Assembly (NCBI GenBank): GCA_004211905.1
Contig: SHBP01000012.1
Span: 1-43,612 of the forward strand
DNA length: 43,612 nucleotides
DNA from: SAR92 clade bacterium
GTDB taxonomy: Bacteria > Pseudomonadota > Gammaproteobacteria > Pseudomonadales > Porticoccaceae
Direction: 5' to 3'
Below, piece by piece: positions 6,714 to 9,955 of the stretch. The notes under the pieces are model-generated. The model saw only the letters and a program-made list of their open reading frames with translations, made no database searches and was not told the DNA's origin. Within the stretch, counting starts at the first letter, position 1; every line of letters starts with the position of its first letter. The translations under genes and the position numbers were made by a program.

Positions 6714-8138
6714 TCAGTTTTTTGCACCACGACCCAAGGTGTTAAGGTTGGCAGTGTGTTGGTCTCGATCAACTTCGTAATAAGAAATACACCAAATCAT
6801 AATCATCCAAACCGTAACCACAGTAGGCACATAAAGGGCACCAAGCTGGAATATGGCTTCTGAAGGAACATTCTCAATACTTACCCCCTTCGGAAACTGG
6901 GCAATAGTAAGAATTGTACTAGCCATTACAACGCCGAATCCTTGAACAAACTTTTTAACAAAGGTCATAGTAGCAAAGAAAACACCTTCAGAACGGCGCC
7001 CTGTATTGACCTCACTCTGCTCCACTAAATCGGCAATCATTGAGGTGGTGATAGTTTGGTAACTTATAATTAAACCAACGTCAATAATGGTTACGCTAAG
7101 AATAATTGGAAATAAAAGAGGGTCACCATTCTCCGGCATTAACCCCAATAGGCGAAGTATGATAGTCATTGGGAGTATGGTGAACGCCAGTAGCCCCGTA
7201 ATAATCGCCGCACGTTTTTTGCCAAGCTTTCTAGACACGATAGGGGAGATGACAAGACCGATGATAGCTGAAATAACCACCGACAAGGAAATCAAAGAAT
7301 ACTGCGCTGTAGAGAAACCCCAAAAGAATGAGTTTAGATATAGAGACAACCCCGCAGCGGTGCCGGTGCCGATGGCGCCAAATAGAGCGGCGGCGAACAG
7401 GGCGACAAATGAGCGATTCCGCAAGGTCTCAAAAATCTCCCTATAAATCTGCCTAATTGTTAGTTTCCGTTTGGATGGTGCTGGCTTGAGTTTTGGTATT
7501 AAATTATGGGTGCCTATGGCTGATGTCATAATAGCTGTGAAAATAATGAGGGCAGCAACTAGCCCCATCTGGCCATATCCGGCCACATTAAATGTGCCAT
7601 GACTATATTCACTAGTGGGCACTAGTAAATAGTAAGATGTGCATGCGCCCATAAGGGTACCGCCACTCCAACCAAAAAAGAAACGGTAGCTGAGTATGCT
7701 GGTTCGCTCATCATAGTCCTCGGTCATCTCTGCCACCATTGCCGAATTTGGAATTTCATAAATAGTGATCAAAGTGCGAACGAGAATAGCAAGACACAAA
7801 ATGTAACCAAATAGCTCATTGCCGCTTAAGCTGGCGGGTGGATTCCAGATAAAGAAATATGAAAGACTAACAGGTATTGCCGCAGCGTACATGTATGGAT
7901 GGCGGCGACCCCAGCGTGTATGGGTGTTATCCGAAAAATATCCTATTAAAGGGTCACTTAAAGAATCGATAACTAAAGAGATCATTAGAGCCAAACCAAC
8001 CAGATATGCATCTACTCCCATAGCCTGGCTGTAAAAAATTAAGAACCAGTAATCAAACCCATTACTCTTCACACCATATGCAATCGAGCCTATACCATAG
8101 GTGAGCTTATTGACCGGGGAAATATGTGAGTTCTTCAT
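6714..8138 (-). CDS. GPH-type MFS transporter (glycoside/cation symporter family)
   Basis: The 474-residue protein has about 12 hydrophobic segments and the GPH (MelB-like) signature DPLIGYFSDNTHTRWGRRHP in the loop after the second membrane segment. Other family features are the N-terminal KLTYGIGSIAYG and a second-half repeat with SYQTITTSMIADLVEQSE. Members import sugars, glycosides or sulfonated/organic solutes with H+ or Na+; the substrate is not determined. It is the most upstream gene of the minus-strand catabolic set and is divergent from the structured RNA at 8238, so the ~90-base gap must hold promoters in both directions. Confidence 0.87.
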   Translation of the reverse strand: MKNSHISPVNKLTYGIGSIAYGVKSNGFDYWFLIFYSQAMGVDAYLVGLALMISLVIDSLSDPLIGYFSDNTHTRWGRRHPYMYAAAIPVSLSYFFIWNPPASLSGNELFGYILCLAILVRTLITIYEIPNSAMVAEMTEDYDERTSILSYRFFFGWSGGTLMGACTSYYLLVPTSEYSHGTFNVAGYGQMGLVAALIIFTAIMTSAIGTHNLIPKLKPAPSKRKLTIRQIYREIFETLRNRSFVALFAAALFGAIGTGTAAGLSLYLNSFFWGFSTAQYSLISLSVVISAIIGLVISPIVSRKLGKKRAAIITGLLAFTILPMTIILRLLGLMPENGDPLLFPIILSVTIIDVGLIISYQTITTSMIADLVEQSEVNTGRRSEGVFFATMTFVKKFVQGFGVVMASTILTIAQFPKGVSIENVPSEAIFQLGALYVPTVVTVWMIMIWCISYYEVDRDQHTANLNTLGRGAKN

Positions 8139-8225
8139 TCGGTTTCCAAGATATTAGGCCGTTTAATCCCTTAACTTTGATTCCTTTTATTGGCTAGACG
8201 CTGTTTTGTTTTTCAGCTACCTGTG

Positions 8226-8231
8226 TATAAT
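8226..8231 (+). promoter_or_regulatory. Perfect -10 box (TATAAT) for the structured RNA
   Basis: TATAAT matches the sigma-70 consensus exactly. A -35 about 17 bases upstream is poor (T-rich, TTTTGT around 8204). The predicted start of transcription is near 8238, right at the 5' edge of the folded RNA described next. Confidence 0.65.
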
Positions 8232-8237
8232 ACATGA

Positions 8238-8347
8238 CGCACCGATTTGATCCAGATTGCGGGGTGCTTTATAAATACCAGCTAAATCGGAGTGTCGACA
8301 TCAATCGACTCACTAACCCGATTTAGCGTTGCTGGATCGGGTTTTTT
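8238..8347 (+). ncRNA. Structured ~110-nt RNA with intrinsic terminator (novel sRNA or leader/attenuator)
   Basis: The segment folds as a three-way junction. Closing helix GATCCAG (8249-8255) pairs with CTGGATC (8332-8338). A short GGTG/TACC hairpin follows at 8262-8279. A third arm is a perfect 10-bp helix GCTAAATCGG (8281-8290) / CCGATTTAGC (8318-8327), extended by AGTG/CACT and TCGA/TCGA and capped by loop CATCAA. GGG and TTTTTT (8342-8347) follow, as in an intrinsic terminator. A second copy of CCGATTT at 8242-8248 can pair with AAATCGG (8284-8290) instead, giving a competing fold. I do not recognise a known family: it is not 6S, SRP RNA, or any SAM, SAH, glycine or THF riboswitch I know. 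It may be a free sRNA or a switch in the leader of the operon beginning at 8729. Confidence 0.6.
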
Positions 8348-8438
8348 GCATTTAAAGGATTAGCTTCCCTTAGAAGCTGGGCATTTGATAACCAGATTGT
8401 GCGCCCGCATATCGCAAAGCACTAAAGAGGATAATCCA

Positions 8439-8603
8439 ATGAGTGATCGAGAGAAAACCTATTATAGATGCGCAAATGCGCATCTAAATCCTGATAAAGC
8501 TATCCAAGCTACGATGATCAAATTAAAAATTCACGGTCATCGCAGAACTCTTATTAAGAGTTATTTTTCTATACCTAAATTATCAGCGGGCCAGTGCCGA
8601 TGA
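8439..8603 (+). CDS. Small ORF, 54 residues, unknown
   Basis: An ATG preceded by AAAGAGGA at good spacing opens a 54-residue frame (MSDREKTYYRCANAHLN...) rich in lysine, arginine and histidine. I recognise no family. Its codons 10-16 contain a perfect 9-bp inverted repeat AGATGCGCA-AA-TGCGCATCT (8466-8485), which could be a DNA operator or an RNA hairpin. It lies between the terminator of the structured RNA and the methyltransferase gene, 125 bases before the latter. It could be a real microprotein, a leader peptide, or a chance frame. Confidence 0.35.
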   Translation: MSDREKTYYRCANAHLNPDKAIQATMIKLKIHGHRRTLIKSYFSIPKLSAGQCR

Positions 8604-8728
8604 AGTTGTCTATTTTGGTGATTTCTTGTCGTAAAAAAATATCCTTGTGTCGTCAGTTTATACGCGTTAGCGCAATTTTGCGTCCACAATCCACAAAATT
8701 CGTTAGAGCAAATTAAAGAGCAATTACT

Positions 8729-9955
8729 ATGTCTATAACACACGAAAATACAGAGTCAGTGACCCTTGATTTTGACGTTCAAGTTCCCGAAGTTTTAGCT
8801 GCAAATGATGCGCCTAAACCCTTTGGTTTCGGTACACAGATTCGTAAATCATGTTATTTCGATGCCACCGTACGCTGGGGTGCTAGCGCATTCTCGGTTT
8901 ACAACCACATGTATATCCCCAGGGATTTTGGCGATCCTGAGCAAAACTTTTGGAATCTTGTTAATGCAGCAACGTTGAGTGATGTAGCCGTTGAGCGGCA
9001 GGTTGAGATAACCGGACCAGATGCGGCTAGTTTTGTACAGTTGTTAACCCCGCGTAACCTTTCGACCTGTGCTGTGGGGCAATGTAAATATGTGTTAATT
9101 ACCAATACCGATGGTGGCATACTAAATGACCCTATCTTATTGCGTTTGGCTGAAAATCATTTTTGGCTCTCGTTAGCTGACAGCGACATTTTACTTTGGG
9201 CTCAGGCGCTTGCTATTAATTCTGGTTTAGATGTTCAGATTAATGAGCCTGATGTGTCGCCATTGCAGTTGCAGGGCCCAAAGTCCGGTGCAATTATGCA
9301 GTCTTTGTTTGGCGACAAGATTAATGAGCTGCGCTACTACTGGTTTGGTGAGTTTGAATTGGACGGTATGCCTCTAATAATCTCCCGCACTGGTTGGTCA
9401 AGTGAGTTGGGTTATGAGATTTATTTACGTGATGGTACTCGCGGTGACGAACTATGGGAGCGTCTGATGCATGTCGGCGCAGAGTTTGGCCTTCAGCCAG
9501 GCCACACCTCAGCAATTCGACGTATTGAGGCGGGCATGTTGTCTTATCATGCTGATATGGACAACAAGACTAACCCCTATGAATTGGGCCTTGACCGCCT
9601 GGTTGATCTAGAAATGGCGGCTGATTTTGTTGGCAAGGCGGCGCTGACCAAGATTGCAGCAGAGGGTGTTAAGCGTAAACAGGTTGGTCTAGTTATTGAT
9701 GGTGAGCCATTTGACGGGGCAAATACTGATTTTTGGCCAGTTTTTGTTGGTTTTGAGCAGGTTGGGGTGGTTACTTCGGCCATTTACTCGCCGCGCTTGA
9801 AAGCAAATATAGCCTTAGCTATGGTAAGCATCGAGCATAGTGCTGTAGATACAGAAGCTCAGATTGTGACTCAATTTGAACAACGCGGTGCTAAAGTAGT
9901 AGCTAAGCCTTTTTACGATCCTAAAAAAAGCATTGCTAGTTCGGTAAAGGTATAA
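8729..9955 (+). CDS. GcvT-family methyltransferase, DmdA-like (candidate DMSP demethylase)
   Basis: This 408-residue protein has the folate-binding GcvT/aminomethyltransferase fold. Blocks typical of the DMSP demethylase (DmdA) branch are VYNHMYIPR, VAVERQVEITG, LLTPRNL, LSLADSD, LQGPKS, RRIEAGMLSYHADMD and SAIYSPR. However the WSKQGG motif that I remember from SAR11 and roseobacter DmdA reads WSSELG here, and the RIE block is preceded by TSAI rather than C-P-N. It therefore belongs near DmdA but may act on another methyl donor with tetrahydrofolate as acceptor. It heads a four-gene set with CoA-related enzymes and follows the structured RNA. A modest AAAGAG ribosome site precedes the ATG. 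Confidence 0.7.
   Translation: MSITHENTESVTLDFDVQVPEVLAANDAPKPFGFGTQIRKSCYFDATVRWGASAFSVYNHMYIPRDFGDPEQNFWNLVNAATLSDVAVERQVEITGPDAASFVQLLTPRNLSTCAVGQCKYVLITNTDGGILNDPILLRLAENHFWLSLADSDILLWAQALAINSGLDVQINEPDVSPLQLQGPKSGAIMQSLFGDKINELRYYWFGEFELDGMPLIISRTGWSSELGYEIYLRDGTRGDELWERLMHVGAEFGLQPGHTSAIRRIEAGMLSYHADMDNKTNPYELGLDRLVDLEMAADFVGKAALTKIAAEGVKRKQVGLVIDGEPFDGANTDFWPVFVGFEQVGVVTSAIYSPRLKANIALAMVSIEHSAVDTEAQIVTQFEQRGAKVVAKPFYDPKKSIASSVKV

Follow-up and report, generated by a model that had tools for sequence, protein, structure and literature searches.

A SAM-II-type aptamer, an intrinsic terminator and a SAM-V aptamer in tandem upstream of a small orphan ORF and a dmdA-like gene in a SAR92 clade bacterium

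The window (the whole 43,612-nucleotide stretch of SAR92 clade DNA analysed, contig SHBP01000012.1) carries on its + strand a structured leader RNA, followed by a SAM-V aptamer, a 54-aa ORF, a direct repeat and a dmdA-like gene. A first-pass annotation had seen here an attenuator- or riboswitch-like leader RNA in which pairings exclude one another and which ends in an intrinsic terminator, and in this it was right; the helix P1, the pseudoknot, the SAM-V aptamer at 8370-8435 and the 54-aa ORF are additions to it. The motifs on which it was built all lie where it had placed them: TATAAT (8226-8231), CCGATTT (8242-8248), AAATCGG (8284-8290), a second CCGATTT within 8318-8327 and a GGG-T6 end at 8347. 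As to its claim of an own promoter, TATAAT at 8226-8231 (+ strand) is by its letters a probable -10 box, with a 5' end that would fall near 8238, and a sigma-70 scan, in which 1.9 matches are expected by chance, found no paired -35/-10 there, its sole match lying on the - strand elsewhere. The RNA folds stably, 8238-8350 reaching -38.4 kcal/mol (z = -3.32, with 1 of 200 shuffles as good) and 8237-8347 giving a z of -3.58 (0 of 200 shuffles as good), and the MFE fold of the window is indeed the three-way junction described, with an outer helix, a small hairpin and a 10-bp arm carrying two extending helices.

Judged from sequence comparison, 8237-8290 (+ strand) is a SAM-II-type aptamer, that is, a real RNA of a known class and not a new one, with SAM as the predicted ligand. 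Searching Rfam, as had been proposed, gave a match below its cut-off in the RNA and one above its cut-off downstream (SAM-V, see below). The former, from a sub-threshold scan of 8150-8760, is a SAM_alpha (SAM-II, RF00521) match at 8229-8306 with 20.1 bits (cut-off 36, E = 0.036), which by itself is no proof of SAM-II membership; the gathering score is a curator's threshold and no biochemical trait, and the relatives likewise score below 36 (22.4-34.1). A model of the window element and the elements of L047, L053 and L059 (R1) matches 10 of 114 related genomes (E <=0.05), six of them strongly (own genome, G025 (H921), G027, G041, G462 and G024); the weak matches in G052 (two), G012, G004 and G021 (E 0.002-0.05) resemble plain terminators by eye and were left out. 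For a hold-out model (R2), six SAM-II elements were taken from other genomes, with the window type excluded: L080, L081 and L082, which are alphaproteobacterial records above the Rfam SAM-II cut-off, together with L083, G041 and G462. Three of these (L083, G041 and G462) themselves fall short of the Rfam cut-off, and it was R1, a model that includes the window element, that led to G462; read with these caveats, R2 gives the window element 35.9 bits (E = 5.5e-6, 64,755 bases searched) and the L047, L053, L059 and G027 elements 30.7-38.9 bits, no other place in the window scoring above 13.1 bits. The RNA, which the first-pass annotation could not match to any class it knew, does have one in SAM-II. 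In scans of the own whole genome with RF00521 and R2, the element was absent among the 150 scored of 396 and 614 first-look candidates.

In the window element, P1 pairs 8239-8243 with 8263-8267, L1 starts with GATTTG from 8244, and the pseudoknot helix P2 pairs 8252-8260 with 8281-8290, GCTAAA standing at 8281-8286. In an alignment of seven elements (A3; 12 pairs, 5 in P1 and 7 in P2, 84 cells), P1 and P2 are paired in 98.8% of the cells, whereas sliding the partner strand brings pairing to <=57%. Two-sided changes occur in 4 of the 12 pairs versus 1.3 in shuffles (4 of 500 shuffles reach that), and none of the 500 attains the covariation score; further pair types are not above the shuffles (500 of 500 reach the value, with seven sequences). 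Taken singly, P1, which closes L1, is paired in 100% of its cells with two-sided changes at 2 of 5 pairs, and P2, an H-type pseudoknot between L1 and the 3' strand, in 98% with 2 of 7, its structure having been drawn with the tested sequences in view. Across the six R2 elements, all 30 cells of P1 are paired and 4 of its 5 pairs show two-sided changes. Covariation, which the first-pass annotation had named as a check, is present in both P1 and the pseudoknot. Competition for AAATCGG, as it had proposed, is also real, 8281-8290 being common to the pseudoknot and the antiterminator; for the pseudoknot, the covariation in the seven sequences supports 8252-8260 as the partner, the GATTT of CCGATTT 8242-8248 being the conserved L1 start. 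The ligand-site letters of SAM-II are reported as U, U in L1; A, U, U; and U, A, A in the 3' strand (PMC11508383). Mapped by eye onto A3, these letters are present: GATTTG, GCTAAA and the TT of TTGC are invariant, and the position preceding TT holds A in the window element and the other elements of the short-P1 type, but C in those of metN and metK.

Among the related elements, that of G462 lies before metK (626.7 bits, cut-off 309.4), and G041 has its element in front of a gene resembling MetN (497.1 bits, just short of the 499.7 cut-off), with MetI next (275.8, cut-off 212). The SAM-II elements of L080 and L082 precede O-succinyl- and O-acetylhomoserine sulfhydrylase genes, and that of L083 a desaturase-like gene. 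G027 has a lone SAM-II (L079 276-329, - strand) before a 64-aa ORF; its 3' strand runs into the likely ribosome-binding site, which points to translational, not terminator, control. On a G024 contig (L012 3050-5674), SAM-II (27.2 bits) stands before a desaturase/AlkB-like gene and SAM-V (38.2) before an OmpW-family gene. By eye, the SAM-V pattern is also seen before OmpW-like ORFs in L050, L055 and L057 and before an AlkB-like ORF in L056, and a ferredoxin-like ORF lies in the same SAM-riboswitch gene neighbourhood (L012 and the set L050, L055, L056, L057 and L083); the desaturase/AlkB-like, ferredoxin-like and OmpW genes possibly form a SAM-controlled monooxygenase cluster. The window element, its three tandem relatives and the elements before metK, metN and the 64-aa ORF make up a marine SAM-II group missed by the Rfam threshold, all being below 36 bits or unreported with the Rfam model. 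What is new in the window element is a SAR92 member below Rfam's SAM-II threshold.

The part downstream of the SAM-II aptamer (8291-8347) is the antiterminator/terminator. The antiterminator (8281-8327, + strand) pairs 8281-8290 with 8318-8327 over 10 bp in both the MFE and the constrained folds. The intrinsic terminator (8315-8347, + strand), found by scan and constrained folds, has core arms 8317-8327 and 8331-8341 followed by T6; it gives the one terminator-like hairpin (13 pairs and a T tail, 8315-8343) in 8100-8760, 661-base shuffles yielding a mean of 0.7. In an alignment of the window and three relatives (A1, 4 sequences), the 11 terminator core pairs stand in all four by eye, G-U counted, and the antiterminator is weaker in the three relatives, with one C.A mismatch. 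Constrained folds of the window put the terminator state at -36.0 and the antiterminator state at -38.4 kcal/mol, i.e. close, and P1 with the terminator at -33.5 kcal/mol, pseudoknot and ligand energy excluded. Equal-extent pieces of H921, UBA4451 and Hellea fold into a P1 hairpin and the terminator (z = -1.71, -3.44 and -3.29), and H921 pieces cut 2-4 nt inside P1 show a junction-like fold. The expectation that relatives would keep the three-way junction therefore failed: among equal-extent folds it is found in the window only and is the MFE fold of none of the three relatives. These folds, together with the constrained folds of the window, indicate that in the window the junction represents the antiterminator form. 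The ligand-bound fold would be an H-type pseudoknot, not a three-way junction. A new RNA class with such a junction, which the stable window fold (z from -3.32 to -3.58) and the score below the Rfam SAM-II cut-off might favor, is scarcely credible when the junction is absent from the folds of 3 of 3 relatives, R2 matches the element, and relatives sit before metK and metN-metI; it was rejected on these grounds, which removes a false lead.

The SAM-V aptamer starts 23 bases past the end of the noted RNA (8347). It occupies 8370-8435 (+ strand), holds the ribosome-binding site AGAGGA (8426-8431) and matches RF01826 over its full length with 42.4 bits (cut-off 41), as the sole gathering-threshold Rfam match in the window. 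The locus thus shows the tandem layout, with an intrinsic terminator between SAM-II and a SAM-V that lies at the start codon. Thirteen stretches of the genome collection match a DNA pattern of the SAM-V core. In L047 (SAR92 H921), L053 (Cellvibrionales UBA4451) and L059 (Hellea sp., which we take to be an alphaproteobacterium), SAM-V is preceded by this SAM-II element with its terminator, and in L051 (G024) the contig begins inside the element, so that the tandem's 3' part lies at the contig end; the other nine SAM-V stretches have no recognisable copy of the element in the preceding 220 bases. An ordinary terminator with chance upstream pairings and no ligand would account for the good intrinsic terminator, but it is most improbable given that four tandem loci, from gamma- and alphaproteobacteria, conserve the aptamer upstream of the terminator.

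The first gene behind SAM-V is the 54-aa ORF (8439-8603, + strand; ATG at 8439), an orphan family read from its translation and a homologue in G024. This homologue has 53 aa, lies at the same place and shows 43% identity over 53 aligned positions. In 51 aligned codons, there are 11 synonymous and 28 non-synonymous differences (22, 19 and 35 at codon positions 1, 2 and 3), by which the ORF is probably coding and fast-evolving; relatives are found in 2 of 56 genomes, its own and G024. The ORF behind SAM-V is readable in four of the five tandem loci (54, 53, 135 and 170 aa), the Hellea contig ending there. None of these four has a Pfam match above cut-off, nor has the H921 59-aa ORF behind a second SAM-V or the G027 64-aa ORF. 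That 4 of 4 readable tandem targets are small orphan proteins is new. Looking for a methionine- or SAM-related target in the window, we found that the first gene is the orphan ORF and that the dmdA-like gene follows 125 nt further; the gene nearest the RNA is this ORF and not the methyl-transfer gene of the operon that the first-pass annotation had placed downstream.

In SAR92 H921, three SAM aptamers lie in one small cluster (L047 1438-2319): the tandem stands before the 135-aa orphan ORF, followed by the second SAM-V (39 bits, just below the cut-off) and the 59-aa orphan ORF. The third ORF of this cluster (167 aa) is homologous to the UBA4451 tandem ORF (170 aa), with 50% identity. Within the 54-aa ORF of the window, 8461-8500 is palindrome-like, AGATGCGCAAATGCGCATCT, and an SdsR_RyeB match at 8507-8627 overlapping the ORF was set aside (29.6 bits, cut-off 38). 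A phage or plasmid origin of the tandem was likewise dropped: window 8226-8445 has no match among phages or plasmids, the SAM-II pattern has 0 matches in viral contigs, the 54-aa ORF has no relatives among phages or viral contigs, and PHROG gave none for five of the orphan proteins. The sole viral-contig SAM-V match is a core pattern followed by ATG in a 4.2-kb IMG/VR contig (L066 1360-1385, - strand).

The dmdA-like gene (8729-9955, + strand), of the DMSP demethylase family, has GCV_T and GCV_T_C domains, scores 375 bits with NCBIfam PRK12486 (below the equivalog cut-off of 410) and belongs to the SAR92 dmdA group, with 11 further near-full-length orthologues of 71-82% identity. Upstream of it lies a TGTCG-N16-TGTCG direct repeat (8627-8652, + strand), a probable own promoter/operator, which eleven of the twelve orthologous loci share (nine exactly, two with a single mismatch) and G044 lacks; it is a candidate site for a DMSP-responsive regulator. 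R1 and SAM-V matches occur at 2 of the 12 loci (window and G024), and the other ten have no R1 or SAM-V match within a 1500 nt flank. Because of this conserved repeat and the ten loci with neither riboswitch, dmdA need not be the target; with the repeat read as its own control site, the 54-aa ORF would be the first target and dmdA possibly reached by read-through.

One could argue instead that the real output of the tandem is the dmdA cluster, on a single transcript with the 54-aa ORF as a leader, SAM repressing DMSP demethylation. We regard this as possible but rather doubtful. The gene does stand 125 nt behind the small ORF on the same strand in both the window and G024, the scan for terminators in 8100-8760 detected none between the two, and DMSP demethylation is reported to supply methionine and SAM (PMC5069961). 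However, ten of the twelve dmdA loci have no riboswitch match while eleven keep the repeat, dmdA is described as functional and DMSP-inducible in HTCC2207, H921 and H231 (PMC10746254), and in H921 the tandem and dmdA are on different contigs, the tandem preceding other genes. The main text of the SAR92 dmdA regulation paper mentions riboswitches 0 times (PMC10746254), Pelagibacter DmdA is reported as constant under sulfur limitation (PMC5069961), and of the open-licence papers listed by the literature searches, none describes, by title and abstract, SAM-II/SAM-V before dmdA or in SAR92.

It is thus most probable that the RNA is a two-stage SAM-II/terminator/SAM-V tandem acting as a SAM off-switch, with the 54-aa ORF as the first target and dmdA as a possible read-through target. 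Both aptamers, the competing pairings, their order and their spacing are computed. During transcription, SAM would stabilise P1 and the pseudoknot and sequester 8281-8290, leaving 8317-8327 free to pair with 8331-8341, and transcription would end at the T run (8342-8347). Without SAM, 8281-8290 would pair with 8318-8327 and the polymerase would read through. In transcripts that escape, SAM-V would bind SAM and cover the ribosome-binding site from which the 54-aa ORF (8439) is translated. The modelled window fold, in which P1 and the pseudoknot are broken, suggests that SAM-II is masked by the linker as in the full-length Pelagibacter tandem RNA, where the linker is reported to block the SAM response of the SAM-II domain (PMC11508383). 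This masking might mean that the ligand response of SAM-II is lost, or hidden by the linker, and that SAM-V is the working switch, but we consider this unlikely, since GATTTG, TTGC and GCTAAA are invariant in seven elements, P1/P2 pairing is kept through two-sided changes, and equilibrium folds of the finished RNA do not represent co-transcriptional folding. Under the two-stage off-switch, we read the masking as a need for co-transcriptional binding of SAM.

SAM feedback on DMSP demethylation would be new, and is a possibility. Should the tandem act on dmdA, methanethiol versus DMS production by SAR92 would come under the control of SAM status. It is a speculation, in our opinion somewhat improbable, that part of the SAR92 clade couples SAM sensing in two steps to a small orphan protein and, through read-through, to the DMSP demethylation cluster, so that the SAM level of the cell sets its uptake of DMSP sulfur and methyl groups, and that this tandem type serves more widely as a portable cassette controlling small orphan proteins.

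A SAM-II/SAM-V tandem of Pelagibacter ubique bhmT is said to have been described by Poiata et al. 2009. The window element resembles SAM-II (RF00521) in P1, L1 with GATTTG and TTGC, the H-type pseudoknot and GCTAAA, and differs in P2, which is short (strands of 9 and 10 nt) where L081 and L082 have a longer one. The downstream aptamer is a SAM-V (RF01826) member by the Rfam cut-off, with no notable difference. In the published account of the tandem, SAM-II was always before an intrinsic terminator and SAM-V at the ribosome-binding site in the original 120 cases, and 149 SAM-II/SAM-V arrangements were counted later (PMC9481103). The Pelagibacter bhmT tandem and the window share the order SAM-II, terminator, SAM-V, start codon (PMC9481103, PMC11508383) and the same predicted modes, SAM-II ending transcription and SAM-V blocking translation (PMC9481103). 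They differ in that the window host belongs to a gammaproteobacterial SAR92 genus, and in that the window has the 54-aa orphan ORF and then dmdA, whereas Pelagibacter has bhmT.
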